64,000 bases of DNA from a virus. The stretch spans positions 1-64,000 of IMG/VR virus record IMGVR_UViG_3300025684_000014; one strand, 5' to 3'. The position numbers were made by a program, and so were the translations under genes. Below are positions 33,017 through 53,686 of this stretch, in pieces; within the stretch, counting starts at the first letter, position 1, and every line of letters starts with the position of its first letter. The notes below the pieces were generated by a model, which was not told where the DNA came from, made no database searches, and saw only the letters and a list, made by a program, of their open reading frames with translations.

Positions 33017-33349
33017 ATTAAAAATCCTTTTATATATTTAAATATATTATATTAATAAATTTCTATTATATCAATTTAAAAAATTTCAGTAAAAAATTTA
33101 GATTTAAGGATTGGGTAAGAATCTAAAAAGTTTTTTAAACAAGGGGGTAGGGTAAAAAATCCAATAGTGGGAAATGAAAATATAGACTGTTTTTGGGGGT
33201 ATTATATTTTAATGTGGTTTTCAACCCTTAAAGTTGGGAGGCCACCCGGGGTAAAGACTTCCCGGTCCGCGTCGGAGAATTAGTCAATCGGGCGATATGC
33301 CCACATTCTTGTTGTCAGGTTCAAGACGTTAAAACCAAAGGAAGTCGTC
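33017..33349. other. Divergent intergenic region between leftward operon and rightward island
   Basis: No gene seen. The left part (33,017-33,140) is very AT-rich with TATAAT-like strings on the minus strand and probably holds promoters for the leftward operon. The sequence changes abruptly to GC-rich near 33,220. There a hairpin CCGGG/CCCGG (33,246-33,265) and a GGGC/GCCC hairpin (33,289-33,302) precede the first island gene. Confidence 0.5.
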
Positions 33350-33964
33350 ATGACTACTATCATCAACACCCTCAATATCCTCTTCGCCCTCATCATCAGC
33401 ACTTCTGTCTTGGCTTGCCCTCCATCACAACAACACCAAAACCTCCCCTCAAACGAGGTAGTAGAAAGTGCAATCATCGACTTCCAAGAAGAGGTCAAAG
33501 CCTTCGAAGTCCTTGGTGATGAATGGGGTCGTTACATGGGGATGATAGAGGAGTTGAACCAACTCCCCATAGTAGACAAAAGAAGAGATAAAGTAACAGA
33601 TCTTTTCATAAAGGTGAATAAGTACACTCTTTTTGGCTACCCAACCCATATCCGCTCCGATAGGAATAGTGCCTTTTATAACGATTTGGTAGCCAAAAAG
33701 TACGGCAGCCAAGTGTCTTTCGGCATTGGTCCGGATGGTTTCATGGGCAAGATTGTACTTGCTCACGAAATCGGTCATAGCTTTGGTTATGGCGAGGCGG
33801 ATGCAGATTATTTTGCCGCGTCTACCGATTACGATATGTGGGATCTAGCAGAGTATTACCTGACTAAAAAAGACCCAACTGATTGGGATTCCTTGGAGAA
33901 GGGCTCCAAGGACTATTTGCCCAATGGCATTAGACTCAGGTTGATGGCGATACCCTTCATGTAG
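33350..33964 (+). CDS. Secreted or lipid-anchored zinc metallopeptidase (HEIGH zincin)
   Basis: A 204-aa protein with an N-terminal export signal (residues 1-22) ending in VLAC, close to a lipobox. The motif HEIGH near residue 140 is followed after a few residues by EADAD and FAA, the HExxH...E arrangement of gluzincins such as ImmA/IrrE-like M78 peptidases. Two His and the downstream Glu would bind zinc and the Glu of HEIGH would be catalytic. It probably acts outside the cytoplasmic membrane. It opens the GC-rich island and its initiation region (GTCGTCATGACT) is nearly repeated at 44,905. Confidence 0.7.
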   Translation: MTTIINTLNILFALIISTSVLACPPSQQHQNLPSNEVVESAIIDFQEEVKAFEVLGDEWGRYMGMIEELNQLPIVDKRRDKVTDLFIKVNKYTLFGYPTHIRSDRNSAFYNDLVAKKYGSQVSFGIGPDGFMGKIVLAHEIGHSFGYGEADADYFAASTDYDMWDLAEYYLTKKDPTDWDSLEKGSKDYLPNGIRLRLMAIPFM

Positions 33965-33968
33965 TAGT

Positions 33969-34099
33969 AACTCTGGCTCCGGCCCTCTTCGGAGGTGTCT
34001 GGAGCCGAAACTAGACTGACAAGCCCTTAGGGGCTGTCAGGTCAGGTCTTGACAAGCCTGTTTACTAGTCGCGCGGAACGCGCCTGATGAGTCAGAGTT
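33969..34099 (+). ncRNA. Hammerhead ribozyme 1 (stem II split, GAAA-first layout)
   Basis: Core GAAA at 34007-34010 and CUGAUGA at 34084-34090. Stem III is ACUAG (34010-34014) with CUAGU (34065-34069); the predicted cut is after C34070. Stem I is GCGCG-GAA-CGCGC (34071-34083). The outer stem II helix is AACUCUG (33969-33975) with CAGAGUU (34093-34099), with a side hairpin GCUCC/GGAGC holding a UUCG tetraloop. Stem III encloses two more hairpins. It lies between the zincin gene and the next gene and would free the latter's mRNA. Confidence 0.8.
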
Positions 34100-34159
34100 G
34101 TTTCTACTATCAGCAACCTCGTGTCAGCACAGACATTAAAAGCAGAAAAGGAGCGGCGT

Positions 34160-34669
34160 ATGGCTGCTTTCATCATCAATCTTTTCCAGTTCGCACTGGT
34201 TGTTCTTTTTTCTCTGCCTGTCTTTGGGCAGATGACCGTCTCTGTTGAGACTTCTTACGATGGTATGGCCAATACCACTACAGTTTCTCTCAAGGATGTC
34301 GTCTTGCTCAACATCACAGAGAACCGTGATACTACAGGCATTTGCACTGTCATCTACGCAGAGGGGGATATCCCACCGCATAAGATGGAGGCAATCATGA
34401 GCTTGGAGAACCTGTGCGCAAAATATAACCGCGCGCAAAAGTTGGCTGACGAACTCGCCAAAGAGTTTGGTACGTCTCGTTATCAAGCCCTGAAGGTCGT
34501 CTTAGAGAGCGCCTTTGGGTGGAATGAGCGCTATCAGATCTATCCCACCAAGGGCATTATCTTCGAGGCTAAGAAAATCGCGCGTAAATATCTGCGCTTA
34601 AAGAAGAAGGTTGAGAAAAAGAAAATGAGCAAGCGTCTCATTAGAGATGCACTCGGATCTCGCCGATAA
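34160..34669 (+). CDS. Secreted protein with FIINLFQFAL-type signal, function unknown
   Basis: The ATG at 34160 has AAAAGGAG 8 bases upstream and is preferred over a GTG at 34121. The 169-aa product starts with an export signal MAAFIINLFQFALVVLF, which is nearly the same as that of the transglycosylase gene downstream. The mature part has a beta-rich N-half and a very basic C-terminal tail (KARKYLRLKKKVEKKKMS-like, many Lys). No domain recognised. It may act with the neighbouring secreted enzymes on the cell envelope. Confidence 0.65.
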   Translation: MAAFIINLFQFALVVLFSLPVFGQMTVSVETSYDGMANTTTVSLKDVVLLNITENRDTTGICTVIYAEGDIPPHKMEAIMSLENLCAKYNRAQKLADELAKEFGTSRYQALKVVLESAFGWNERYQIYPTKGIIFEAKKIARKYLRLKKKVEKKKMSKRLIRDALGSRR

Positions 34670-34689
34670 CCCTTTGCCTTGAAGAAGGC

Positions 34690-34812
34690 GTTATAAATAC
34701 TAGCCTCGGGGTCGCACTTACCCAAGCGAAACTGGAACTAGTTTAACTAGGTAGAGAATTAGCACACTCTTTTATCCAGTCTAAGGAAGCCTTACTGACG
34801 AGCTTTCATAAC
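34690..34812 (+). ncRNA. Hammerhead ribozyme 2 (stem II split, GAAA-first layout)
   Basis: Core GAAA at 34728-34731 and CUGACGA (allowed variation at position 7) at 34795-34801. Stem III ACUGG (34731-34735) with CCAGU (34776-34780); predicted cut after C34781. Stem I UAAGG-AAG-CCUUA (34782-34794). Stem II is AAGC (34724-34727) with GCUU (34802-34805), extended by GUUAU (34690-34694) with AUAAC (34808-34812). All helices are perfect. It sits 48 bases before the transglycosylase start. Confidence 0.85.
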
Positions 34813-34860
34813 CCTTTACTCTTAGCCTCGAGAGTTAAAATATTGCAGGCGGAGATAGCT

Positions 34861-35658
34861 ATGTCTTTCATCATCAACCTCTTCCAGTTCGCCCTCATCA
34901 TCCTTTTCGCACTCTCCGCCTTCGGAGAGGTGGTATGTACCGCCGCTAAGGTGCAGGCCAATGAAGTCTCAATTACTCATGGGTACTACTTGTACCCTGA
35001 GTGCGTTAAGGCGCCAGAACCACCGAAACCTCAACCTAAGGAGGCGAAGCAGGTCATCGACCTCGAAGCCTCAATTAAAGCTTTCCTCAAAGAGGAGTGG
35101 AGGAAGGAGGTTAATTCCACTACCTGGTGGAAAGACCGCGTGGAGGAAAACCCCAAGCGCTTCAAGGAGGTTGAAAAAGCCTTCTTTGCTGTTTGGGGGA
35201 AGTCTCCCCTCGAGCAGCAGAAACTGGCACTCGCACTCTGTCTCGTTGAGACTGGGTGCGGGTTCGGAGAGATGCGCAATTGGCGAGTTCGCGGTAAAAA
35301 GTGGACCCGTCACAAGCGTTTCTTTGAGACGCACAAATTCCTTTCTCGGGCGGGGGCTTGCGGTATCACCCAGGTGGTACCGCAGGTCCTCGGCCTGCGA
35401 TGTGCCGACGCGAACGCCTCTTATCTCGCGGCTTTCAAGCTGCAGAAGAGGTGGCTGGAGGAAAAATGGAATGATGGTATTAAGGGCGGGGCTCGAATCC
35501 ACCTCAAAGACCACAAGGTCTGGCTCACCCCCATCCAGCGTGGCGGCAAGACCACCTACTACCCTTACCGTTACAACGGTGGGGGAAAAAGCGCCTGGAA
35601 TTACGGGCGCAAGTGGAAAGTCGCTTATGATGGGATTGTTCTTATTAAAAAAGAGTGA
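34861..35658 (+). CDS. Exported lytic transglycosylase (lysozyme-like fold)
   Basis: The start at 34861 has GCGGAG upstream. The 265-aa product has an export signal (MSFIINLFQFALIILF). The enzymatic region shows LVETGCGFGEM near residue 129 with the candidate catalytic Glu, AGACGITQVVP near residue 165 (the GAxGxxQ motif of SLT/goose-type enzymes) and YRYNGGG near residue 240. It should cleave peptidoglycan glycan strands in the periplasm. It sits with a secreted zincin and another exported protein, so the three may form a lysis or envelope-attack set. Confidence 0.8.
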   Translation: MSFIINLFQFALIILFALSAFGEVVCTAAKVQANEVSITHGYYLYPECVKAPEPPKPQPKEAKQVIDLEASIKAFLKEEWRKEVNSTTWWKDRVEENPKRFKEVEKAFFAVWGKSPLEQQKLALALCLVETGCGFGEMRNWRVRGKKWTRHKRFFETHKFLSRAGACGITQVVPQVLGLRCADANASYLAAFKLQKRWLEEKWNDGIKGGARIHLKDHKVWLTPIQRGGKTTYYPYRYNGGGKSAWNYGRKWKVAYDGIVLIKKE

Positions 35659-35665
35659 CCCCCAT

Positions 35666-35708
35666 TTTCCCTCGCATACTTTTACCTGAAAGGTAAGGGA
35701 GCGTGAGG
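35666..35708 (+). other. Hairpin after transglycosylase gene
   Basis: A long imperfect stem formed by CCCTCGC and GCGTGAGGG encloses an inner TTACC/GGTAA hairpin. It directly follows the stop codon and could stabilise the 3' end of the mRNA. There is no T-run, so it is not a typical terminator. Confidence 0.5.
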
Positions 35709-35715
35709 GACGACC

Positions 35716-35812
35716 TAAATAAGTCGTTAAACTGTTTGAAAAATCCTAGGGTCTCTTTACCTAGGTCGAAACGCTTTTTTGCGTCGCGGGAAGCCCGCCT
35801 GATGAGTATTTA
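35716..35812 (+). ncRNA. Hammerhead ribozyme 3 (stem II split, GAAA-first layout)
   Basis: Core GAAA at 35768-35771 and CUGAUGA at 35799-35805. Stem III ACGC (35771-35774) with GCGU (35781-35784) and a U6 loop; predicted cut after C35785. Stem I GCGGG-AAG-CCCGC (35786-35798). Outer stem II is UAAAUA (35716-35721) with UAUUUA (35807-35812), enclosing a CCUAGG/CCUAGG side hairpin. Stems I and III are very convincing; the outer helix is weaker because an ACGAC/GUCGU hairpin competes with it. Confidence 0.75.
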
Positions 35813-36325
35813 CTATCAGAACTCTTACCATGGTTTTTCTTTATAAGAACTTATCATGGCTAGTTACTAGTACAGAAGTTAATAACAGACGAGGTCTGGC
35901 TTCTTGTGACTGGTACAATTCACACATTCTCTTAGCTAAAACATGCTACAGCTTAGAGTCTTATTGATTGTATGTAAATATTCGTCAACACCCTCCCTCT
36001 GCCAAAAGATTAAATTAACACTGGTTCTGTAACAGAACGAAGCATAGGCAGCGTCACTCGCTAGCCATCCGGGTTTCACGATAAAACAACCCAGGCTCTA
36101 CATACGAGCAAAAAAAAATCGTGGGGTACGCTTCTCCCGTTACATGTAATGGTCCTTAGCCTCCTCTCTGCGCAAGGCAAGACGGCTCCCCAGAACCTAT
36201 TTAATCAGCTTGGACTGTAGTCAGCAGTAATTGACCCGATGGAATGCCTTCCAGGAGGCGCACACAATTTTTTAGAGGACCTGGAATTCCTCTTCTCACT
36301 CACTGGTAAAAGGAGAAATCTTACC
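35813..36325 (+). other. Long untranslated leader before the polymerase-like gene
   Basis: About 510 bases without a convincing gene. A 45-codon frame at 35830-35967 lacks a good ribosome site. It holds palindromic elements, e.g. GTTCTGT/ACAGAAC (36025-36039), TTACATGTAA (near 36142) and a GCCT/AGGC hairpin close to 36246. If ribozyme 3 cuts, this becomes a ~540-base structured 5' leader. Confidence 0.5.
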
Positions 36326-39300
36326 ATGAGTAATCTTAACAAACCCCGCAAGACGGCGTTTGATCGACTGTCCGCTGAGCAGCAGCTCAACTGGCAGAAG
36401 ATCAGCGTCGCTTGCGAGAACGACGAGGGGTGCACTGCCCCTCTTGCTCGCAAGAGCAAAAAAGTCGTCAAAGTGCCCCGCCCTAAGCGTCGTCAGGCGC
36501 AAAGGGCGGCCAAGCGCGTTGAGCGCCAGAACCGCCTTGAGAGCACCATCAACAACCTCAGCACAACCTCTGAGGGCCCTAGCGCCCTCAAGGCTCTCTT
36601 TGAGGGCCTAATGGTTAGTGTGTTGGTGATCGGAATGGTGATGGGCTTCTTTGCCCTCACCAACGACACCAACACGCAGTCTATCGGCTTCGATAATGGT
36701 GGTGTGTACGCCGTGAACTCTGGGAGCTCCGTGAAGAACGCGGACATCACCAGCCGCCAAGGCGCTGTGAACGCGATTGACACCATCGATCTCGCCCTTG
36801 ACCTCGCTATCAAGCACGCCCCTTCACAGAGCGCTGACCTCGGCGCTTTGGGGCTTCCTCCTCGCAGGAGGAATGACTTTGAGGGTGACGCACCCTTAAA
36901 TCCCATGAAGGGTGATCACCTCCAGAAGTTCTGGAAAAATTATCTGCACGAGCGCGCCATTTTTGAGAGCAAGCAGACCTATGCACGTCGTAAGCGTGCT
37001 TTGATCGCTCGCCTCAAGAGGGCGCAAAAGCAGGCGGCGGCAGCCCACGCCAAGAAGATGAACGCTCACGCGAACATCCTCACCGGCCAGCTCTGCTACC
37101 TCTCGAAGCGCGCCCAAGAGCACAGCGACGAGGATTTGTTGATTCAGGTCAACAAGGCCTTTGAGCTTGCTCAGGCCGCGAAGAGCGAGGAAGAGATCAT
37201 CGACCTGGTCCGTGCTCTCGAGCGTGAGATCAATGGCGACCTCTGGCGCTTTGACAACACCATTTACTTCCAGTACGAGTGTGACGCCCGTCGCTCTGCT
37301 GGTACTTCTGATCAGACGGGCAAAAAGGAGAAAAAGACATTGCGTAAAGCATTTGTCTTTGCAATTAAGCTCATTGCCGCGATGATCATCTTTAAGCTTC
37401 TTCAAGGGTTCTTCCCTGAGGATAGCTTTGGGTTGATCTTCGTTGCTGTGGTCGGCGGGACTGATGTTCCTACCGATTTTGTGGGCGACGATCTTGAGAC
37501 GGTTGCTGAGAAGCTTCAGCCTCACAGCAACCTTGGGCAGGCCCTTGCGTCCATCGAGCGTCGTATGGGGCACTTGCCGATGAGCACCATGACCCTCCTC
37601 CCTGGAGGTGATGGCGCACCAAAGGTCATCTTTAAGACCAACGGGCGCGACAACATCGGCCTTGTGCCCTTCGCTCAGGCGTTTGGTCTCGAGGCTTTGG
37701 GCGAGGACGACGTGCTTCTTATCGAGGCTAATGGCGTTCAGCAGGACGCCATCAACGAGGCTTGCCAGGCGTTCGTCCAAAAGGGCTATCGTCCAGTCGG
37801 TACGCGAATGCTCATTAAGGCGTTCAACGACGATGGGACTAGGGCTCTTGGCGCTGATTATATCGAGGCTATCGACGTCTTCCTTGGCAAAATGGTTGAC
37901 GTCAGGTCTTACTTCAGCCTGGGCAGTGCTCCTGCGCTTAAGACCTTCACCCTCGATGACGACATCTACACCGAGCGCGAGGGCGAGGACGAGGGCCGTA
38001 AGGTCTTGTGGTTCACGGGTAAGGCCAAGCACATTTTTGCCGATCTCGACGGCGTTGAGGGTGGCCTTCCCATCTCCGAGAAGGCAATGGAGGCGATCTT
38101 CGGCTCCAAGAACCCCGGTCAGCCACGCTTGATCGTCAAGCTGTGTGACGGCGTGGCTGCGATGGTCAAGGGTAACTTTGCCCCTATGGCTGTCCGCGCC
38201 TTCTTGCAGGCTGACGGCTCCTGGAAGTTCCTCACCCGTGCTCATTTCGAGAACACCGATGAGGGTAAGGCTGAGTGGCGCAAGGGCTATGACTTCGTCT
38301 TCATCGAGGACGACACGCCCAAGGGCCGTGGGAAAGACCAGCTCAAGACCGAGGATATCAAGCTCTTCGACGCGAATGGTAAGATCTCGGGCTGGCTCAT
38401 CGCTCAGGCCAAGAATGAGCAAGGCAAAAGCTTGGTTTCGTACCAGGTGCTCGCTCTCGTAGCCAAGAGTGCCGGCCTTGATGCAATCGCTGCGCACATG
38501 GAGAGCTTGATCTCTAACAGTGTGCAGAAGAGCGTTGATCAGGTCGAGCGCGATCTTGACAAGCTCGACATCCCTGGTGCTACCGTGAGCGACTTGGAGA
38601 AATTCAAGGAGCTCTTGAGCGCCATCGCACCCGGGTCTGCCCGCCAGACTCGTAAGAACCACCTTGGCTTCGGTGCTGAGGTGTTCACTGGCTACATCCA
38701 CATGAACGTGCTCATTAAGAAGGGCACAATCGTCGTGGGTGATGGCTTCGGCCTCAACAACCGTGCGATGGTCAAGCGCCGCGGCAAGTTTGGTGCAGAG
38801 GATGCTTGCGGCGGTAAGAACCCCATTCTCGACCACCAGCAAACGTGGGTCGGCAAGCTGATCCGCATTGGTGACGTCCAAAAGCTCAGGGAGAGCTTGG
38901 ACAACGGCAAGCCTCTCAGCGACGAAGAGAAGGCTTTTGCTGCTGACTTGTTTGGTGCTGACAAGCTCGATAAGGTCATTTGGATGACCGAGCAGATCAA
39001 GTGGGTTTTGAGCTTCGCTCCTGCGCTCACCCGTGGCTCGATCCTCATGAACGCAGAGGACGTCGCTGACCTTGCGGGTGATGATGACGGGGACCAGCTC
39101 TGGTTCTCGTTCGGAGATGAGCGCATCCTCGAGGTGTTCCGCCTCATCAAAGACCAGGCACAGGGCAATACGCTCTATGCCATTGAGAACAATAAGGGTG
39201 CTCAGCTCCCCTCCGAGACGGGGGCTAGAGACTTTAAAGATCTCTTGACCGCAGAAGGTGACGAGCTTACCGCGCTCTGCCGGTTCATCATGGCTCCTAA

Positions 39301-42300
39301 CAAGGGTCAGGGTCCAGTCGGCTACATGGCCAACATCTGTACCATTCTGATGGCGACCTTCCAAAAGGTTGACAATGGGAATGGCGGGATGGCTTATGAA
39401 AACGATTGGGTTGAGCGCCTTCAAGCCACACTCAACCTCATGCAACAGACGTCAATCGATCTCCAAAAGAGGATCTACTTGACGATCTGCCTCATGAGGT
39501 GGACCAAGGGTGACCTCCGCAAGGAGAAGCTGGACGGTCGTGGTCTTGTGCCTGGGTACGACTTCCCTGGCCTCGCACACGACTTCAACCCGAACGGCTT
39601 CCACCCTGAGAGCTTCAGCTCAGACGAGTACAAGGCAGCCTTGACTCAGGTTGAGATGCCCCACGTCCCAAGCCACTGGGTCTCAGGTGAGAGTTTCCCT
39701 GTTTGCACTGACAACGACAGTCAGTATGCAATCAGGGCGATTGGCTCTTGGTTGATCTGGGAGGTTTTGAGCCTCATTGTCACAGGTAAGCCTGCTGACT
39801 GGGGCGATGTTGCTGATGACGCGAAGGGCGGCCTTGATCCCTGGAGCGTGAGCAGCGAGTTTATCGGTGAGGATGGTCCTGACTTTGAGGCTTTTGCCAA
39901 GAAGTACGCCCTTACCGACGAGCAACATGCTCAGGTTCTCAACGCCTGGCGCAAGAGCCCTTCCGAGCTGTACAGCTGGAAGACGCAAGGCAAGGACGAG
40001 CCATTCGTCCAGAGAGCGCCTGCGGCTCTTGAGCTCAACCATGAGATCGCTATGCGCCTCAAGGAGAGCTACAAGCCCTCTGGCGAGGTGAAGGTTCACT
40101 TCCGCGAGGTTGAGGCCGAGATCAAGCGTCTCTTCTCCACTGACTTTGCTGGACAGGAGTGGCGTGCGCGCAAGTTTGTAGATACCCTCATCGACGGTTT
40201 CTATCTCGAGGCTGCGCTCGCTAACAACAATAAGGCAACCTCAGAGCGATTCCAAAACTCTGAGGAGCGCTCAGGGGTCGAGGCTCTTGGCTATATCCTT
40301 GAGTCGCTTGAGAACAGCTTTACGGCTTCTACAGGGGCTACAAAGGCTGACATCAAGCTGGCTCGTGCTTTTGCGGCTGCTCTCAACCCCCGTGAGCGTC
40401 GCGACAACAAGGCTCGCGAGATCGGTGTCTTCGTGATGCTCATTTCTTGGTGGACGTTAGAGTACGCAAACCAGGAGTGGATCGACCTTATCCAGCGGAA
40501 CATCACTCCTGAGGAGGGGGACAAGACTCCTAAGTACAAGGTCGCGATGGCTAAGTACGGGGTCGACGAGGCAACCGCCAAGAAGATGGTGAATGCCAAG
40601 CACTCAAAGACGATTGCGCCTGAGCTCCTCAAGTTCATCAAGGGACTCGTCAATGAGCACTTCTCGGTTAACGCTGAGAAGATGGAGGCTAAGGCCACCT
40701 GGCTCGTCGATGATGCTCTGAGCGCAGCCGTCAAGGCGATCGAGAACACAGAGATCGTGATGGCTAAGCGTGACGTCCTCAAGGAGGTCAAAGAGGCGAC
40801 CATCCGCTGGACCGACATGCGTGACAGTTGGGACCAGCGTCGTGTTGCTGTTGAGATCCTCCTCGCGGCTACAGGCTGGTTTGAGGCTTCGTGGTTTGAG
40901 GCTATGAAGGACGAGCTCAAGATGATGGCTTCCCAGACTACCAAGACTGTGGGTCAAATCCGTAAAGAGCTCAAAAACGCTGCTCCCGACGCTGACGTCG
41001 CGGCTCTCAAGACTGAGCTCAAGGTTGCATCAAAGGCTTCTTCTGCAAAGAAGTTGCTTGCGATGCTGGCTGATGATAGCCTCGGCTATGTCACTATCCT
41101 CAACGCGCTCTGTAACCCAAAGCAGAATCCTCTTGCGCGTGAGTTTGTCACCACAATGCTCGACAACAGCGGTCCTATCGTGAACGTTGAGCGTGCGTGG
41201 CAACGTGCGGATGATCTCGGCTGTGACAAGTCTGACGTCCGCGACTGGACCTGGGAGCTCGGTGACTGGGTGACTCACAAGGGCAAAGGCACCGACCCCA
41301 ACACGGGGATGCCACGTCAGAACAAGACAGTACTCTACGCGCACTCACGCGTCGAGTGGTCTTTGACTGACACGGCCACTGCACGCTTTACGCGTATTCT
41401 TCTCGAGGGTGGTGTGAGCATTTACAAGCTCACCAAGGTGCCTGCTCAGAGCTTCAAGACCTGGCGTTACTTTGACGCTTTCGTCTATGAGGCAGAGCGT
41501 ACGCCCGATTACTCCCTGGTCCATGGTGTCGGTCACCTCGTCAGCCTTGCTATCCCTACCCAAAAGCAGGCCGACGAAGAGCGTTACCGCCGCATGGCTC
41601 ACCTCGGTCACCTCGAGTGGGCTTGCCAAGCGTGGACTGATGTCGACCCCACGCTTAGCCAGGCAGACGTGCGCTATCACGTTGAGGGTCTCCGTGAGGA
41701 GATTGATCGCGTCGAGGCTCTCAAGGACAACGCCCTCATGGTGAGCTGGGGTCACCTGCTTAGTCCTATTACTTGGGGCATGCAGATCCATAGCTGGGCT
41801 GGCAAGCTGACCAAGAAGGCCATTAACGGTCGTGCTTGGGCTGCACTTGCACAGCTTGGCAAACGCGACCCCGCCTACCACGACCAGCCCAAGGTCAACA
41901 ACCTCGGGGCTGAGATCGTGACCACCGAGCTCAAGGCCCTTAACTCCAATGGCAACCACATGCCATTCAAGCGCAACTTTGGTCCTCGTAACCAAAGCCA
42001 GGCTCTTCAAAGGGCTAAGCGCATGGCGGGCAAGAACGAGGGTGAGCTTGACGACACCACCGACCTTGTGCCCTTCACCTTCGGTGATGACGAGAACACC
42101 CAGCACACTTACGCTGAGTGGCTCGACTTTATCGAGGGTGTAGCCGCCAACGGCACTGGTCCTGCTAGCGCTATGGTCCTGGCAGGCCTCTGGTACGGTG
42201 CTCATGGTGGGCGTATTGCCGCTCTGGATCCCAACGGCTCAATCTTCTCCAAGGAGATTGCTGAGAAGATCCAAAAGCGTCTCTTGCGCTGCCCCGCCTA

Positions 42301-42427
42301 CGAGGTTCGCCTCCACATTGAGGACCTCCTCAAGGGCGAGTACGTCGCTCCTGTTAGCAAGCCAACTGACAAAGAGAGCGCGGAGGCCTTCTTCGCCGTG
42401 CTTCGCCGTAAGGCTGGCCTCGCTTAA
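36326..42427 (+). CDS. 2033-aa membrane-anchored protein, candidate double-psi-barrel RNA polymerase
   Basis: The start at 36326 has AAAGGAG upstream; an in-frame ATG at 36239 has no such site. Residues about 95-115 and 340-362 are hydrophobic membrane-type segments. Residues 919-923 read DDDGD within LAGDDDGDQLWF, the DxDGD metal-binding signature of the second double-psi barrel of cellular RNA polymerases and QDE-1/YonO-type single-chain enzymes. About 305 residues earlier KLCDGVAAMVKGN supplies two Lys in a K...KG setting like the first barrel. RAPTL-like FAPALTRG precedes DxDGD. The rest is mostly helical and unassigned. Codons are GC-rich and strongly biased. Polymerase function is inferred from motif and spacing; membrane anchoring would be unusual. 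Confidence 0.55.
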   Translation: MSNLNKPRKTAFDRLSAEQQLNWQKISVACENDEGCTAPLARKSKKVVKVPRPKRRQAQRAAKRVERQNRLESTINNLSTTSEGPSALKALFEGLMVSVLVIGMVMGFFALTNDTNTQSIGFDNGGVYAVNSGSSVKNADITSRQGAVNAIDTIDLALDLAIKHAPSQSADLGALGLPPRRRNDFEGDAPLNPMKGDHLQKFWKNYLHERAIFESKQTYARRKRALIARLKRAQKQAAAAHAKKMNAHANILTGQLCYLSKRAQEHSDEDLLIQVNKAFELAQAAKSEEEIIDLVRALEREINGDLWRFDNTIYFQYECDARRSAGTSDQTGKKEKKTLRKAFVFAIKLIAAMIIFKLLQGFFPEDSFGLIFVAVVGGTDVPTDFVGDDLETVAEKLQPHSNLGQALASIERRMGHLPMSTMTLLPGGDGAPKVIFKTNGRDNIGLVPFAQAFGLEALGEDDVLLIEANGVQQDAINEACQAFVQKGYRPVGTRMLIKAFNDDGTRALGADYIEAIDVFLGKMVDVRSYFSLGSAPALKTFTLDDDIYTEREGEDEGRKVLWFTGKAKHIFADLDGVEGGLPISEKAMEAIFGSKNPGQPRLIVKLCDGVAAMVKGNFAPMAVRAFLQADGSWKFLTRAHFENTDEGKAEWRKGYDFVFIEDDTPKGRGKDQLKTEDIKLFDANGKISGWLIAQAKNEQGKSLVSYQVLALVAKSAGLDAIAAHMESLISNSVQKSVDQVERDLDKLDIPGATVSDLEKFKELLSAIAPGSARQTRKNHLGFGAEVFTGYIHMNVLIKKGTIVVGDGFGLNNRAMVKRRGKFGAEDACGGKNPILDHQQTWVGKLIRIGDVQKLRESLDNGKPLSDEEKAFAADLFGADKLDKVIWMTEQIKWVLSFAPALTRGSILMNAEDVADLAGDDDGDQLWFSFGDERILEVFRLIKDQAQGNTLYAIENNKGAQLPSETGARDFKDLLTAEGDELTALCRFIMAPNKGQGPVGYMANICTILMATFQKVDNGNGGMAYENDWVERLQATLNLMQQTSIDLQKRIYLTICLMRWTKGDLRKEKLDGRGLVPGYDFPGLAHDFNPNGFHPESFSSDEYKAALTQVEMPHVPSHWVSGESFPVCTDNDSQYAIRAIGSWLIWEVLSLIVTGKPADWGDVADDAKGGLDPWSVSSEFIGEDGPDFEAFAKKYALTDEQHAQVLNAWRKSPSELYSWKTQGKDEPFVQRAPAALELNHEIAMRLKESYKPSGEVKVHFREVEAEIKRLFSTDFAGQEWRARKFVDTLIDGFYLEAALANNNKATSERFQNSEERSGVEALGYILESLENSFTASTGATKADIKLARAFAAALNPRERRDNKAREIGVFVMLISWWTLEYANQEWIDLIQRNITPEEGDKTPKYKVAMAKYGVDEATAKKMVNAKHSKTIAPELLKFIKGLVNEHFSVNAEKMEAKATWLVDDALSAAVKAIENTEIVMAKRDVLKEVKEATIRWTDMRDSWDQRRVAVEILLAATGWFEASWFEAMKDELKMMASQTTKTVGQIRKELKNAAPDADVAALKTELKVASKASSAKKLLAMLADDSLGYVTILNALCNPKQNPLAREFVTTMLDNSGPIVNVERAWQRADDLGCDKSDVRDWTWELGDWVTHKGKGTDPNTGMPRQNKTVLYAHSRVEWSLTDTATARFTRILLEGGVSIYKLTKVPAQSFKTWRYFDAFVYEAERTPDYSLVHGVGHLVSLAIPTQKQADEERYRRMAHLGHLEWACQAWTDVDPTLSQADVRYHVEGLREEIDRVEALKDNALMVSWGHLLSPITWGMQIHSWAGKLTKKAINGRAWAALAQLGKRDPAYHDQPKVNNLGAEIVTTELKALNSNGNHMPFKRNFGPRNQSQALQRAKRMAGKNEGELDDTTDLVPFTFGDDENTQHTYAEWLDFIEGVAANGTGPASAMVLAGLWYGAHGGRIAALDPNGSIFSKEIAEKIQKRLLRCPAYEVRLHIEDLLKGEYVAPVSKPTDKESAEAFFAVLRRKAGLA

Positions 42428-42502
42428 TTAATAATCCTGGCGTGATGCACTATCCAAATATCTAGCCGTCTTTTTCGGTGAGATAAGTGTGTTGCGTCAG
42501 GG

Positions 42503-42566
42503 CGTGTCAGGTCGGAGCAATTCTGCCGAGATCTCTGATGAGTATGTCTCAGGACAACGAAACACG
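42503..42566 (+). ncRNA. Hammerhead ribozyme 4 (complete type III)
   Basis: A contiguous hammerhead in the standard order. Stem III is CGUGU (42503-42507) with ACACG (42562-42566). The predicted cut follows C42508. Stem I begins AGGUC and ends GAUCU, with internal bulges and an inner GG/CC pair. The core is CUGAUGA (42535-42541). Stem II is GU(A)UGUC-UCAG-GACAAC with one bulged A, and GAAA is at 42559-42562. All conserved core bases are present. It lies between the polymerase-like gene and the 163-aa gene. Confidence 0.9.
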
Positions 42567-42604
42567 AATCAGCAGCTCAAAATACATTCATAAGGAGAAT
42601 AAAA

Positions 42605-43096
42605 TTGAGCGATTTCGATAAGCTCCTTGCCGCCCTCATGGCGGGGGGTTCGACTGTCAACGTGACCGTAATCAACGCGGTACACCCTGGCGGTGTAGTC
42701 AACATCAAGAACGGGTGCGTTGATGTTGAAAAGTCTAATGCACCCACCCCTAAGAAGGCTCAGGGGGAGAAGAAGAGCCAGGAGGAGCCACTCCACGATG
42801 ACCACACCTCTGCAGCTGAGGATGCTGTTGGTGGGGGTGACGAGGCTCCAATCGACACCACCCCCGCTGAGCGGAATCGCGGTGGTGGTACTCCAGAGGG
42901 GTCACCGCTCCTCGCTCAGGTGAAGGGCAAGCTCCTCGCCTTGAGTGAGGAATTGACGAACAGGGTTGTCAGCCATATCGATCGCATCAGCTCGCTGAGC
43001 AAGGACGATCTCGAGAAGATCGCTGCGATTGAGGACAGTGACCTCGACAACCTCGACGAGATCCTCGACAACCTCTTTCCTGACCTTGCTTCTTAA
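42605..43096 (+). CDS. Small protein with acidic low-complexity middle
   Basis: Starts with TTG at 42605, 6 bases after AAGGAG. The 163-aa product has a short beta-type N-terminus (STVNVTVINAVHPGG), a Pro/Glu/Gly-rich linker (residues about 45-105) and an acidic helical C-terminus with Asp-Leu repeats (DLDNLDEILDNLF). No family recognised. The acidic tail suggests a protein-protein contact. It is the first gene downstream of ribozyme 4. Confidence 0.55.
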   Translation: MSDFDKLLAALMAGGSTVNVTVINAVHPGGVVNIKNGCVDVEKSNAPTPKKAQGEKKSQEEPLHDDHTSAAEDAVGGGDEAPIDTTPAERNRGGGTPEGSPLLAQVKGKLLALSEELTNRVVSHIDRISSLSKDDLEKIAAIEDSDLDNLDEILDNLFPDLAS

Positions 43097-43158
43097 ACAA
43101 GGTTAACTTTAAACTCATCATACACTATCACTCCTAAATCATTATAATATGGTGATAA

Positions 43159-43245
43159 CGACTCCGCCAAACTCCGCCAAGCGGAGCTTGGCACCCCTGT
43201 CGGGGTGAGGAAATGGAGGGCTCTGCCCCCCAAACCCCCCGTGTT
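43159..43245 (+). repeat. Cluster of GC-rich palindromes
   Basis: A direct repeat ACTCCGCCAA x2 (43161-43180) is followed by CTCCGC/GCGGAG, then CACCCC-TGTC-GGGGTG (43192-43207), then a GGGC/GCCC hairpin. The CCCC(TGTC)GGGG core is the reverse complement of two hairpins at 51,658-51,702, so it may be a dispersed palindromic element of the genome. Confidence 0.6.
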
Positions 43246-43251
43246 GTAGGG

Positions 43252-43714
43252 GTGAGGTGATGTATGGTGAAAGGAAATCAGTATGTCTGACACAACTTTC
43301 GACCCAAAGTTGCTCTGTTTTATTTCCCCCTCGGGGGAGTTTCAAGCACTAGCTCCTCTGATCGCACTTGTGCGTGATGAGCAGCTCGTTTTCCAGGCAA
43401 ACCGGCCTCTTTTGGAGGGGTTCGGGTGCCAAAGCGATGAGCAGACCAAGCAGGGATTCGACTTTCTCAAGTCAATCTCTCTCTCGTCCACTTTTAATTC
43501 ATGGGCGAATGAGGAAGAGGGGTCCTCCGGGATTTCGTCTAAGTCACTGGTCGCGTCGGCAACGACGCCCGGTGCAATCCTGACCCTCGTGGGCCTTCTA
43601 AGGAGTCATCCTGACGCTTCGGCGTCAGGAACCTTGACCGTCAACTACGCCAACCCCGCGCGCCGCGCAGGGGTGGGGCGTCCCCGCTAACTAAACCCCC
43701 ATACATCACCTCAC
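43252..43714. repeat. 16-bp perfect inverted repeat flanking a gene
   Basis: GTGAGGTGATGTATGG at 43252-43267 is the exact reverse complement of 43699-43714. The two arms lie immediately before the ribosome site and just after the stop of the 135-aa gene. In RNA they would pair the 5' and 3' ends of that message. Confidence 0.75.
43283..43690 (+). CDS. Small protein enclosed by inverted repeats
   Basis: A 135-aa protein starting ATG at 43283 with AAAGGA upstream. It has mixed hydrophobic and Ser/Gly-rich composition (GSSGISSKSLVAS) and a basic C-terminal end (NPARRAGVGRPR). No family recognised and no membrane span is obvious. The inverted repeat around it is the main clue to its biology. Confidence 0.55.
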   Translation: MSDTTFDPKLLCFISPSGEFQALAPLIALVRDEQLVFQANRPLLEGFGCQSDEQTKQGFDFLKSISLSSTFNSWANEEEGSSGISSKSLVASATTPGAILTLVGLLRSHPDASASGTLTVNYANPARRAGVGRPR

Positions 43715-43978
43715 ACCGCTTAGCGCGTTCTTTTCCGTAAGGAGACGAGACGCTGAGTGGCACCTCTTTGAGTAGAGGGGCGTAGGATAAGCGTTAAAAG
43801 CGTAATCCTTGGTCGCCTAGACCTAAACTCGTCCCCCTAAAGCAGAGTAAAATCTGTGGATGGGGCTGATGTGGCTCTTTCGGGAGCCGAAACGCATCAG
43901 TAGTCACCGTTGATGACTTTAAACTCAACCCCTGTGAGTTAGGGCAAAATACTTGCTACCTTTAGGGGTAGCGCCTCA
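43715..43978 (+). ncRNA. Structured RNA segment leading into the giant RNA
   Basis: No protein gene seen. Hairpins include CCTCT/AGAGG (near 43763), CAGA-GTAAAA-TCTG (43844-43857), and a nested stem CTGATG...CATCAG (43866-43900) around GGCTC/GAGCC. A GGAGACGAGAC string at 43741 recurs at 46,107. It may be the 5' part of the same transcript as the downstream RNA. Confidence 0.5.
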
Positions 43979-44895
43979 GTGTGTGTGGGTGAACCACCAT
44001 CGCACATAGAAGGAAGCAGTGTAGGTACTGTGACCTGATGAGGTAAAAACGGTTGGCAACCATGTTGCTGGGCACCTATGCCTCACACTAGCTATCCTAC
44101 AATAGCTAAGAGAAAAATAGGGAGGTTAAATCACCTCGGTCTTTTTTAAAGGTTGAAGAATGGGGTTAGCGATTATAGACATGATCGTGAAGCTCAATGC
44201 GCTATGAAGGGAACATAGTAGCGCGACTCGTTGTGAGTATAAAAACCGAAAGCGGAAATCCTAGGTATCCGTAAGTAGAAGAAGAATGTCTCAGGTTGTT
44301 GAAACTGACCTGGATTACTTTGGATTGATCCCCAAAGAATTAAATAGTCAGCGGCTAGCATAGTATGCCGCGATCTTGGATTGGAACCCCAAGATCAAGG
44401 AGTTGCTTGTAACTTCATCACTACCTTATAAGGGGCAATTCTGGAAGCTTTTCCAGAGCTGATAGATTGTCTTTTATAGGGTAGGCATCACAAGATCGAC
44501 ATTGTTGGGCACGGCAATGTTTAAAGATTAGCAACTATTAGTTGTTATAGTGTCCTGCCGTAGACCGATTACTGTAGAGTAATCATCATAGGCGGGGTAG
44601 GGACGGTATCTGTGGATACTATAACCCTTCAATTTTATGCCCCTTCAGACTGGCTACTTCTTCGTAGTTAGGGGACAGGCAATGCACTTTAGTGTAGCAG
44701 AGGCCAGTCAGCCGGTGATAGGTATGCCGGTGGTGATTTTGAGGTTAATCGTACTCAAACTCAAGAACCAAGACACCTGCGGGGACATAACTCCCTTTGA
44801 TCGTTGACCAGGCGATCAGCTATCTACGGATAGGCACATTGGGCGACTGCAGGCATGTAGTCTAGAAGTGAATGCTAAGTACATCCCTCACACAC
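43979..44895 (+). ncRNA. Giant structured non-coding RNA (~0.9 kb, GOLLD/ROOL-like in size and context)
   Basis: No protein gene. The ends pair over ~900 bases: GUGUGUG-U-GGG (43979-43989) with CCC-U-CACACAC (44885-44895). Between them are more than a dozen simple hairpins, e.g. GCUACC/GGGUAGC, UAGCUAU/AUAGCUA, CAGGU/ACCUG, CUUUGG/CCCAAAG, GAUCUUGG/CCCAAGAUC, CUGGAA/UUCCAG, GAUUAC/GUAAUC, GACUGGC/GCCAGUC and GAUCG/CGAUC. Large ornate RNAs such as GOLLD and ROOL are found in phages near tRNAs and are 600-900 bases long. I see the architecture but cannot test whether this is one of those families. Confidence 0.6.
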
Positions 44896-44909
44896 GAAAG
44901 AAGGTCGTC

Positions 44910-45026
44910 ATGACTGGTATCGTGGAGTGTACATCAGGCTTCCGCGTCTTTTGGCGCGGTTGCCTGATCGGTGCGTTTGCCTCTTTTGAGGTGGCGCACC
45001 GTGAGCTCCTCTCTATCTCAGAGTAA
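44910..45026 (+). CDS. 38-aa microprotein at the end of the giant RNA
   Basis: ATG at 44910, 6 bases after AAGGTC, in an initiation region (GTCGTCATGACT) nearly the same as that of the zincin gene at 33350. The product is Cys/Phe/Arg-rich with a central hydrophobic stretch. Its stop lies in the stem of a CAGA-GTAAAA-TCTG hairpin. The shared start context favours a real gene, but it is too short to be sure. Confidence 0.4.
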   Translation: MTGIVECTSGFRVFWRGCLIGAFASFEVAHRELLSISE

Positions 45027-45274
45027 AATCTGAGTAGGGAGTGAGCTTCTCCTGAGCATGACGTTAAAAGGCTCAACATGCTTTGGCTGACAGTATCGAC
45101 TGTTGACTCGAGCAAAATAGTGTCTCTTTTAGAGAGGAGATGCTATTTAGTCTTACGGCTCTTTATTTAAGGAGACGTTAAGGCAAGCCCTTTTATCAGG
45201 GTATAGGTTATAGGTGAGACACCGAGCCTAGTAGAATATATATTCTATGAAGTTACGTTTAGTAACAAAAAAGT
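45027..45274 (+). ncRNA. Structured RNA segment upstream of tRNA-like element B
   Basis: No gene seen. It contains TCTCT/AGAGA near 45123, an AAGGAGACG string at 45169, a 16-base palindrome TAGAATATATATTCTA near 45231 and GTTAC/GTAAC followed by six A near 45252. Likely part of one RNA with the element downstream. Confidence 0.4.
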
Positions 45275-45466
45275 TCACCATGGCAGGGTAAGTAAAAGCC
45301 CGGTGAGGAAGGTAAGCTTCTTAATATGTCATTTATGGCCACCAAGGTTGGTGCCAGAGGGTTCTAGAGTCCACTACGTGCGAAGTTACAGCTAGTACGC
45401 AGTGAACTCATTCAAAGAGACTGTAATCTCTTTGCTCTGGTAGCCGGTTCAATCCCGGCATGGTTA
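45275..45466 (+). ncRNA. tRNA-like element B with extended anticodon limb
   Basis: A clear T-arm GCCGG-UUCAAUC-CCGGC (45443-45459) and a D-like hairpin CACC-AAGGUU-GGUG (45340-45353) lie around a 6-bp helix CCAGAG/CUCUGG (45354-45359, 45435-45440). That helix encloses two hairpins, one of them CAAAGAGA/UCUCUUUG with a CUGUAA loop. A weak acceptor pairing UCACCAU/AUGGUUA (45275-45281, 45460-45466) has one mismatch. It resembles element A at 46,275 in layout. Its 3' strand is shared with stem II of ribozyme 5. Confidence 0.5.
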
Positions 45467-45589
45467 TTTAACGCACCCCGTAGCTGGGGTCGAAACACAG
45501 TCTTTCTCGGATGTAGGAGAGAGTTAATAGGAGTCGCGTACCTATTGTTAAAACTGTGTCGGGCTAGCTTAGGCCCCTGAAGAGAACCA
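45461..45589 (+). ncRNA. Hammerhead ribozyme 5 (stem II split, GAAA-first layout)
   Basis: Core GAAA at 45492-45495 and CUGAAGA at 45577-45583 (position 7 is A). Stem III ACACAG (45495-45500) with CUGUGU (45554-45559); predicted cut after C45560. Stem I GGGC/GCCC (45561-45576). Outer stem II UGGUU (45461-45465) with AACCA (45585-45589), enclosing a CCCC/GGGG side hairpin. It precedes the 122-aa gene by 47 bases. Confidence 0.8.
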
Positions 45590-45636
45590 GACATCCCGCC
45601 TTACTTCAGCCTCGTTGCATATAAAGGAGAAATACT

Positions 45637-46005
45637 ATGCAATTCCTTAACATCTCTAACCACCCCGTAGAGGGTTGGTCAGCGTCACAGCGCGAGGCGG
45701 CCCTCGCGCTCGCTCCTGAGGCTGACTTGCTCGATGTTGATTTTCCAACCCTCGACCCTCAGTGGTCGAGGGTAAAGGTCAAGGTGAAAGCGATCGAGTT
45801 TATAGACGATCTCGACCCTCGGCCTGGCGCGAGGGCAATGGTAGCGGGTGAGGAGCCTATAATGTGTTTCTACCTCGTGCGTGAACTCCAGGCACTCGGG
45901 GTGGCCTGCTACAGCGCGACCACTGAGCGCGTGGTCGAGGAGCGCGACGGTGTAAAAACCTCGCGCTTCTCATTTGTGCGCTTTCGTGAGTGGCCTGCTC
46001 TCTAA
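45637..46005 (+). CDS. Small conserved protein of a family often labelled CRISPR-associated
   Basis: A 122-aa protein starting ATG at 45637 with AAAGGAG upstream. It opens FLNISNHP ... GWSASQREAAL and contains CFYLVRELQALGVACYSATTER, followed by a charged TxRF-FVRFREW C-terminus. This pattern (LNxSNHP, ATTER, FVxFR) matches, from memory, a widespread small bacterial protein that annotators often call CRISPR-associated because of occasional linkage. The biochemical role is unknown. No CRISPR array or cas gene is in the window. Confidence 0.6.
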   Translation: MQFLNISNHPVEGWSASQREAALALAPEADLLDVDFPTLDPQWSRVKVKVKAIEFIDDLDPRPGARAMVAGEEPIMCFYLVRELQALGVACYSATTERVVEERDGVKTSRFSFVRFREWPAL

Positions 46006-46274
46006 GAGTTAGGTCGCTCCGGGCAGAGTAAACTGCCATAAAAAATCCAGGTAATGTTATTCACCTGCTCTTACAATAAGAGAAAAGAAATAACAAACTT
46101 CTTTGAGGAGACGAGACTCGAAGAGACCGCTAAGGTAATGTAGCGGTATATAAATAACGAGGCGTCACCCCCAATAAGTCTAATAGGCAGGGGGAACTAC
46201 ATCCACGCCTACATCGGAACAACATAAGAAGCTTAGGAATTTCTTATGCCGTGAGCATTATCTGGGATGATTAG
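46006..46274 (+). ncRNA. Structured RNA segment upstream of tRNA gene with insert
   Basis: No gene seen. It starts with GGCAGAGTAAACTGCC (46021-46036), a GTAAA-loop hairpin similar to those at 43,844 and 45,018. Further hairpins are CTCTTA/TAAGAG (near 46068), CCGCTA/TAGCGG (near 46128) and CATAAGAA/TTCTTATG (near 46223). The GGAGACGAGAC string at 46107 repeats that at 43741. Confidence 0.45.
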
Positions 46275-46439
46275 GCAGGGTTAGCTCAGTGATAGAGCGC
46301 TAGCAGCCAACCGTCTGTTGTAAAGAAAGTCAAGCCTAGGAAACTTGATAAGTAATTACAATGGGTTAAGGTAAACATACGAGCTTCCTATCGTATGGGC
46401 AACATGCTAGAAGCGTTGGTTTGATTCCAGCACCCTGCA
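46275..46439 (+). tRNA. tRNA gene with ~94-nt structured insert in the anticodon loop
   Basis: Acceptor GCAGGGU (46275-46281) with ACCCUGC (46432-46438), discriminator A. D-arm GCUC/GAGC. Anticodon stem CUAGC(A)/(U)GCUAG (46300-46305, 46405-46410). Variable AAGC. T-arm GUUGG-UUUGAUU-CCAGC (46415-46431). Everything is tRNA-like except that the anticodon loop is replaced by about 100 bases folding as UUGUAA/UUACAA, UCAAG/CUUGA and CAUACGA/UCGUAUG hairpins. The insert is too short for a typical group I intron. The anticodon identity cannot be read. Confidence 0.7.
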
Positions 46440-46443
46440 GCAG

Positions 46444-46549
46444 CCAAGAATGTATGAAGCCTCCACGTGGCTCTTGGCGGAAATGGCAATCATTGAAGTG
46501 ATTGCGTCAGCTAATATCATACACAAACCATTAAAAAGGAGAAAAAGAC
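46444..46549 (+). other. Structured leader of the 42-aa gene
   Basis: Hairpins GCCAAGA/TCTTGGC (46443-46478, with an inner GCC/GGC) and GCAATCA/TGATTGC (46486-46506) precede AAAAAGGAG and the ATG at 46550. Confidence 0.5.
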
Positions 46550-46678
46550 ATGTGTATCTGTTGTCATCAGTACACTGTCAGATGGTGGAAAATCCGCCGT
46601 CTGACAGCAAGCACTGTGCTTTACGGAGCACAGTGCGATACTTGTGGCGCTGACTGGGAAGAAACAGTCAAAGAGTAA
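46550..46678 (+). CDS. 42-aa Cys-rich zinc-finger-type microprotein
   Basis: ATG at 46550 with AAAAAGGAG upstream. The product begins MCICCHQY and later has CDTCGADW, so CxCCH and CxxC could form one zinc site; the middle is basic (RWWKIRRL). Treble-clef-like microproteins of this kind are common in phages as nucleic-acid or protein binders. The ribosome site and motif pairing support a real gene. Confidence 0.6.
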   Translation: MCICCHQYTVRWWKIRRLTASTVLYGAQCDTCGADWEETVKE

Positions 46679-46867
46679 TAGCGCCGCAACCCCTAGAGAA
46701 TCCAAAAAGCTTGATTCCAGAGCGTATGAATTGGGTACTCTAGGGGGTAAACACTTTTCTTACACCAAACTCAAATTTGAGAAAACCTCGATTCCAAAGC
46801 GTAAAGAGACATTTTAGTCAAAAGTCGCGGCGGAAGAAAAATTCTCAGGATTAAAAGGATCAAAAAA
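46679..46867 (+). other. Intergenic region with stem and direct repeat
   Basis: CCCCTAGAG (near 46690) pairs with CTCTAGGGG (near 46738). A direct repeat GATTCCA-x-AGCGTA occurs near 46712 and 46792. No gene seen. Confidence 0.4.
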
Positions 46868-47152
46868 ATGAGAAAGCCTAAGAAAATAATAAGCTTTTGT
46901 GAGTATCACGAAAAGTTCAATTGTGAGGAGTGTGAGGGGCTCCTCTTTGCTACCTTCGAGGAGGTGGCGAAAAGGTACGGTGACTTTGATGTCACCTACC
47001 GTAATGGAGTATTGGAGGGGGTGTGGATTAAGAGCTGGAGCGAGTTTACTTGCTCCAGCTTTAAGAACCACTACAAAGGAGGGTGGGTCATTATAGAGCC
47101 CGGGGCATGGGCTTGGGAGGTTAGGAAAGTGCGCGTGGAGGCGCACGACTGA
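46868..47152 (+). CDS. Small soluble protein with N-terminal Cys/His cluster
   Basis: A 94-aa protein starting ATG at 46868, 10 bases after AAAAGG. It begins with CEYHEKFNCEECEG near residue 12, a Cys/His cluster that may bind a metal. Aromatic residues (Trp, Phe, Tyr) follow. It overlaps the next gene as TGATG. Function unknown. Confidence 0.55.
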   Translation: MRKPKKIISFCEYHEKFNCEECEGLLFATFEEVAKRYGDFDVTYRNGVLEGVWIKSWSEFTCSSFKNHYKGGWVIIEPGAWAWEVRKVRVEAHD

Positions 47153-47463
47153 TGGGTGGCGCCATGTGCTTAGCAATCTCAGTCATCTCCCTCGTGTGGG
47201 GAGGGATGCACTTGGGATGGGGTGATTGGTATGTGGCGCCGTTTCTTCTTGTCTTTTTAACTCCTTCTCTTTACGAAGAGACACTGTTGAAAGGATACGA
47301 GGAGACGGCAAGGATACACGTAGACAACGCATGGTACATCTTCACGTATCGTGCAGTACTGTTTTGTATTCTATGTGTATTCTACATCCCATGGATCTTA
47401 GTAAGTGACATTGCAAAAGACTCATGGGAATATCTCGAGGAGACTTTTTCTCCTAATCTTTAA
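47152..47463 (+). CDS. Small integral membrane protein, last gene of the island
   Basis: A 103-aa protein with two hydrophobic spans (about residues 5-45 and 65-90), many Trp, and an acidic C-terminus. Translationally coupled to the upstream gene (TGATG). Composition returns to AT-rich right after its stop. No family recognised. Confidence 0.5.
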   Translation: MGGAMCLAISVISLVWGGMHLGWGDWYVAPFLLVFLTPSLYEETLLKGYEETARIHVDNAWYIFTYRAVLFCILCVFYIPWILVSDIAKDSWEYLEETFSPNL

Positions 47464-53404: not shown

Positions 53405-53686
53405 ATGCCGTTTTTAGATTATATGATTTATGTTTTTGGTATTTATGGTTTATCTTGGTTGCTTACTCAATCAGCAATCTTTTTTGAGCCTCGAGACTGG
53501 CTTATGACTAAGTTTGATTTCATGGATGGTTTGCTCGGATGTATTGTTTGTACATCTGTGTGGCTCTCAAGTTTGTTTGTAATGTTTTATTTTCCAAATG
53601 AACTTTGGTTTACGAAAATAATTGTTGTTGGAAGTACAGTAACAACAACTTGGGCTTTAGCACAAATACTCGGAGACGCAGAGTGA
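53405..53686 (+). CDS. DUF1360-like small membrane protein
   Basis: A 93-aa protein with three hydrophobic spans (about residues 5-25, 45-65 and 68-88). LLGCIVCTSVWLS between the first two matches the conserved CxxC-x-W element of DUF1360 proteins found in phages and bacteria. It overlaps the purA-like start by 4 bases, so the two are coupled. Confidence 0.6.
   Translation: MPFLDYMIYVFGIYGLSWLLTQSAIFFEPRDWLMTKFDFMDGLLGCIVCTSVWLSSLFVMFYFPNELWFTKIIVVGSTVTTTWALAQILGDAE

Follow-up and report, generated by a model that had tools for sequence, protein, structure and literature searches.

The window analysed here (64,000 nucleotides) comprises positions 1 to 64,000 of IMG/VR record IMGVR_UViG_3300025684_000014, a 123,667-base contig of an uncultured bacterial virus with a tailed-phage genome. 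From about 33.3 to 47 kb it carries a GC-rich island which is divergent from the neighbouring operon; genes for terminase and an SNase-domain protein adjoin. The G+C content of the island is 41-57%, compared to 34.5% genome-wide. Between its genes lie five hammerhead ribozyme motifs, by which a long transcript is probably divided into mRNAs with hairpin ends, most of them for a single gene.

A preliminary description had placed five hammerhead cores in intergenic gaps on one strand. We scanned the whole record, both strands and all three circular permutations, with a descriptor consisting of CUGANGA, GAAA, a UH cut site and stems I and III of at least 4 base pairs (bp). Exactly these five sites were returned, all on the + strand, all intergenic and all within 34.0-45.6 kb. 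Cuts are predicted 3' of C34070, C34781, C35785, C42508 and C45560. The resulting new 5' ends, 34071, 34782, 35786, 42509 and 45561, are identical to those listed before. The core CUGANGA, GAAA, an NUH cut site and the A15.1-U16.1 pair are present in five out of five sites. Sites 1, 2, 3 and 5 are type II permutations (stem II open), site 4 belongs to type III. When the island was shuffled 400 times with its dinucleotides preserved, the descriptor matched 0.0325 times on average and never more than once; first-order Markov shuffles of the genome gave about 0.5 matches per strand per 124 kb. The sites are composed as follows:

33968..34099, + strand, site 1, type II: outer helix 33968-33974/34093-34099; 5' hairpin 33975-34006; GAAA 34007-34010; stem III 34010-34014/34065-34069; predicted cut after C34070; stem I 34071-34075/34079-34083 (loop GAA); CUGAUGA 34084-34090.
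34704..34805, + strand, site 2, type II: hairpin 34709-34712/34720-34723; GAAA 34728-34731; stem III 34731-34736/34775-34780; predicted cut after C34781; stem I 34782-34786/34790-34794 (loop AAG); CUGACGA 34795-34801; stem II 4 bp.
35744..35807, + strand, site 3, type II: hairpin CCUAGG 35745-35750/35760-35765; GAAA 35768-35771; stem III 35771-35774/35781-35784; predicted cut after C35785; stem I 35786-35790/35794-35798 (loop AAG); CUGAUGA 35799-35805; stem II 1 bp (35767-35806).
42503..42566, + strand, site 4, type III: stem III 42503-42507/42562-42566; predicted cut after C42508; stem I 42509-42513/42530-42534; CUGAUGA 42535-42541; stem II 42542-42558; GAAA 42559-42562.
45475..45585, + strand, site 5, type II: hairpin 45476-45479/45486-45489; GAAA 45492-45495; stem III 45495-45501/45553-45559; predicted cut after C45560; stem I from 45561; CUGAAGA 45577-45583.

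The genes which follow sites 1-5 have Shine-Dalgarno (SD)-like starts at 34160, 34861, 36326, 42605 and 45637, respectively. Thus, a gene with its own ribosome site follows each ribozyme, as had been stated; however, site 3 is 541 nucleotides ahead of the start at 36326 and 'just upstream' is therefore a loose term there. The protein-coding genes of the island are:

33350..33964, + strand, gene 1, metallopeptidase-like (Pfam Reprolysin_3, E 0.0015, below cut-off).
34160..34669, + strand, gene 2, no family assigned, SD AAGGAG.
34861..35658, + strand, gene 3, no family assigned, SD-like start.
36326..42427, + strand, giant open reading frame (ORF), candidate two-barrel (DxDGD) RNA polymerase with GDDDGD; start at 36326 (SD) or 36239.
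42605..43096, + strand, gene 5, TTG start, SD AAGGAG.
43283..43690, + strand, gene 6, no hammerhead in the gap ahead of it.
45637..46005, + strand, gene 7, SD-like start.

In the type II sites the elements are ordered hairpin, GAAA, stem III hairpin, UC cut, stem I hairpin and CUGANGA. Stem II has 1, 4, 1 and 2 bp in sites 1, 2, 3 and 5, a shortness (1-4 bp) absent from the preliminary description. Directly 5' of GAAA stands a hairpin: CCUAGG-GUCUCUUUA-CCUAGG in site 3, and in a related phage, G023, CCUAGG-GUCACCAUA-CCUAGG or, with a compensating change, CCUGGG/CCCAGG. This hairpin probably stacks as a substitute for stem II and may dock to the stem I loop. Where the stem I loop is AAG (or AAAG), the upstream loops have, by inspection, the pattern GUC..C..UA in common; where it is different, the upstream loop differs as well. 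This hints at a loop-loop contact.

A covariance model, R1, was built from site 3 and four G023 sites. It recovered sites which were not part of the training set, i.e. site 2 (E 3.8e-6), site 1 (E 2.7e-4) and a near-copy of site 1 from a nearly identical strain (E 0.0028); the sixth G023 site scored E 0.28. Outside the islands, 0.89 Mb of related loci gave R1 no match at E 1. Covariation was calculated for the type II sites. Among 11 distinct sequences 97.2% of the cells were paired and 13 of 17 pairs had changed on both sides. The covariation score was 0.683 in an alignment fitted to the proposed structure, a bias in its favour; nonetheless, shuffled (0.198) and slid controls (at most 0.127) were far lower. 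In stems I and III, 100% and 98.2% of the cells were paired, and 9 of 10 pairs had changed on both sides; no covariation was seen in stem II, of which the model has only 1 bp.

Two proteins encoded next to the island, terminase and the SNase-domain protein, served to identify related phages; scans of viral contigs with the giant ORF and with gene 3 found no relatives. The relatives are about 40% identical in a neighbouring protein, and there the island is likewise arranged around a giant ORF with DxDGD. Many related contigs have a GC-rich block at the same place, divergent from the operon, with a giant ORF containing GD[DN]DGD (RDSDGD in G023). In 13 island stretches from 12 records including this one (147 kb), the descriptor located 16 distinct sites, all of them on the island strand; the other strand had none. 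One of them was flagged as lying within an ORF only because the longest start was chosen; the SD-bearing start is 3' of the cut. Six hammerheads, all of type II, are present in G023, and every pair of successive genes upstream of the polymerase region has one of them in between. The punctuated transcript of the preliminary description is supported by these six gene-separating sites as well as by the sequence of the window. Two hammerheads are present in G004, two in G028 and one in G029, type III included. In G028 and G029 type III sites occupy the corresponding island region in place of type II. This suggests that cleavage rather than one particular sequence is conserved. That the island is an assembly chimera was rejected because independent contigs carry the same GC-rich island next to the same operon.

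The strain mentioned above is represented by a fragment, L007, in which the near-copy of site 1 has a compensatory hairpin change. On its reverse strand (1-700), gene 1 is preceded by one extra gene with a site 1-like hammerhead after it, so that strains differ by the gain or loss of a gene-plus-hammerhead cassette where the island begins. The extra gene carries its own hammerhead, and gene and ribozyme therefore behave as one unit.

The following sequence of events is proposed. The island would be transcribed from left to right as long RNAs, and the hammerheads in most gaps would self-cleave during or after transcription, releasing mostly single-gene mRNAs. The upstream mRNA would end in a closed stem III hairpin with a 2',3'-cyclic phosphate, the downstream mRNA would begin with a closed stem I hairpin and a 5'-OH. 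In the type II order a cut would indeed place a closed stem I hairpin at the start of the downstream RNA, in agreement with the preliminary description. Such ends should withstand 3' exonucleases and 5'-end-dependent decay; therefore, the messages of one transcript could differ in stability and dose. The sequence itself shows intact cores, covarying stems, strand and position, and recurrence in relatives; cleavage, the common transcript and the effects on stability we infer.

Several points weigh against this proposal. Cleavage and RNA ends are predictions, and a single island-wide transcript is an assumption. At gathering scores an Rfam scan found none of the five sites, only tRNAs. The model search suggested in the preliminary description succeeded below threshold, where Hammerhead_3 matched site 4 at 24.8 bits (an E of 3e-4 for this genome) and, frame-shifted, site 3. 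R1 recognised site 5, a non-training site, only weakly (E 0.11). By descriptor, 7 of the 12 records have no site at all, and in the window two island gaps, 43097-43282 and 46006-46867, are free of hammerheads, the latter containing a hepatitis delta virus (HDV)-like candidate. Therefore, the ribozymes are not essential to the island layout. Finally, thermodynamic folding favours alternative structures by 4-13 kcal/mol; the models used leave the hammerhead core and tertiary contacts unscored.

These competing folds would suit regulatory switches in place of constitutive scissors, i.e. cleavage gated by trailing ribosomes, a protein or a small molecule which tunes the neighbouring gene. The long leader 3' of site 3 would fit as well. 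However, no conserved additional aptamer-like domain was seen, the conserved parts being the core, its helices and the upstream hairpin, and the genes served differ from phage to phage. We consider such gating unlikely. Somewhat less likely still, the ribozymes would mark mobile gene cassettes or serve RNA joining or circularisation, with mRNA maturation being secondary. The difference between L007 and the window is indeed one unit of gene plus hammerhead, with repeats of leader and hammerhead sequence on either side, and two of the G023 sites are near-identical copies. On the other side, neither RNA_ligase (PF09414) nor RtcB (PF01139) was matched in G000, G004 and G023 (a search with PF09511 was uninformative as there was no control match), and the opposite strand is without ribozymes, unlike in symmetric rolling-circle elements. 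For the same reason, zero opposite-strand ribozymes in the island stretches of the 12 records, a viroid-like element was judged unlikely. Decayed or inactive remnants, for which sub-threshold Rfam scores and a very short stem II in most sites could be adduced, are improbable in view of core letters intact at every site and strong covariation.

Clusters of hammerheads in phage DNA have precedents. In prophages multiple hammerheads flank single genes, and processing of long phage transcripts to single-gene mRNAs has been proposed (Perreault et al., 2011, PMC3088659). For tandem sets cleavage was shown in vitro, and a set from Agrobacterium is reported to self-cleave after cloning in E. coli (Perreault et al., 2011). 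Because clusters flanking single phage genes and the processing idea were published in 2011, the novelty claim of the preliminary description, whose author knew of no hammerhead-punctuated operon, is not supported. The clusters of Perreault et al. share with the present one that several hammerheads, of type II permutation, flank single genes or short blocks in phage DNA. In the present case, by contrast, the five to six sites stand between consecutive genes of a single island which diverged phages have at the same place, and types II and III are interchanged between phages. Further, their type II consensus has a pseudoknot between loop I and the 3' tail. Here none was seen by inspection, without a dedicated search, and an upstream hairpin is present instead; in sites 1-3, as in G023 sites 1, 3, 4 and 5, loop I has only 3-4 nucleotides (AAG, AAAG, GAA) and the 3' tails differ (by inspection). 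The Rfam family Hammerhead_II (RF02276) has the same order of GAAA, stem III, UC cut, stem I and CUGAUGA with a short stem II. Independently of our models it supported two G023 sites at E 3e-4 (best 26.0 bits), below gathering, in a part of the model without the upstream hairpin, and had no match at E 1 in the window's own genome.

The upstream-hairpin form, covarying, devoid of a long stem II and below the Rfam cut-off, appears to be new. A loose DNA pattern for its AAG-loop version hit 23 stretches, of which only two, from G023/G024 records, had the stems, the other 21 being chance; a stricter pattern had no match in 84,980 bacterial and archaeal genomes. What also appears new is the consistent punctuation of one conserved GC-rich, structured island with two HDV-like candidates. 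No later report of such an operon was found in the open-access literature, most subscription journals being outside the scope of the search.

The island RNA is strongly structured. Mean + strand folding z-scores are -2.74 in the island, -2.28 within the polymerase ORF and -0.95 elsewhere, i.e. the structure of window 33300-47400 extends into coding sequence. The islands of G023, G004, G005 and G028 are GC-rich and strongly structured alike. Two long non-coding RNA stretches, 43690-45600 and 46005-46870, are very structured (z -8.5, -6.5, -13.4) and contain tRNA-like 3' halves, one of them near 45436-45468; they match no Rfam family. The following elements were located toward the end of the island:

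44639..44708, + strand, HDV-like ribozyme candidate 1, 29.4 bits, below gathering (44).
46275..46439, + strand, tRNA-like gene with an insert in the anticodon arm (ARAGORN, introns allowed).
46443..46521, + strand, HDV-like (theta-like) ribozyme candidate 2, 24.1 bits, below gathering (44).

Candidate 1 has an apparent homologue in the relative G004 (L031:8522-8594, - strand) and no recognised tRNA ahead of it. The predicted cut of candidate 2 is 3 nucleotides past the 3' end of the tRNA-like gene, and CUAA is present (by inspection). The tRNA-like element 46275-46442 ends with A-GCA before candidate 2, and L031 of G004 has the same order of tRNA-like end, GCA and ribozyme. Theta ribozymes are HDV-like ribozymes of phages which cut near tRNA 3' ends (Kienbeck et al., 2024, PMC10879173). 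Candidate 2 (46443) and the L031 element (L031:8594) resemble these in a putative HDV-like fold, a predicted cut at most 5 nucleotides from a tRNA-like 3' end and the tailed-phage setting. The tRNA-like genes with inserts, the GCA spacer and scores below gathering are different. By analogy, the HDV-like candidates probably act at the 3' end of the island's tRNA-like RNAs.

The giant ORF, 2062 amino acids if read from 36239 to 42427, probably is a divergent DxDGD two-barrel RNA polymerase. The comparison to such enzymes (eukaryotic RNA-dependent RNA polymerase, RdRP, PF05183; YonO-like) is based on DxDGD, a motif that the correspondingly placed giant ORFs of related phages have in common. The G014 homologue alone matched Pfam RdRP PF05183 (E 2.1e-5); the window's own giant protein has no detectable sequence similarity to known families. 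AlphaFold yielded no fold of the polymerase-like core (predicted local distance difference test, pLDDT, 34.5).

Elsewhere, two ORFs of G000 (75228 and 76001) begin with the identical 12 residues MSTITLVVIPGP, a local duplication, and the DNA polymerase III alpha domains of G000 are spread among three separate ORFs (87433-88752, 90094-91071 and 105164-106426). Window 53605-55890 has genes for adenylosuccinate synthetase and lyase (purA/PurZ-like, purB-like), with an IMPDH-like gene farther along.

Possibly, although we regard this as doubtful, the lineage runs a largely host-independent, ribozyme-based RNA maturation, in which its own divergent polymerase would transcribe, hairpin-form hammerheads would cut mRNAs and HDV-like ribozymes would trim tRNA-like RNAs. 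Replication of the island RNA at the RNA level by the island polymerase, an extreme version, is most improbable. What hammerheads do for bacteria and phages continues to be called unclear. In this island, position and strand, the recurrence among diverged genomes and the interchange of permutations all point to mRNA separation, and each cut site is predicted to the base. Because the covarying form scores below the Rfam cut-offs, more such ribozymes may hide in phage metagenomes.

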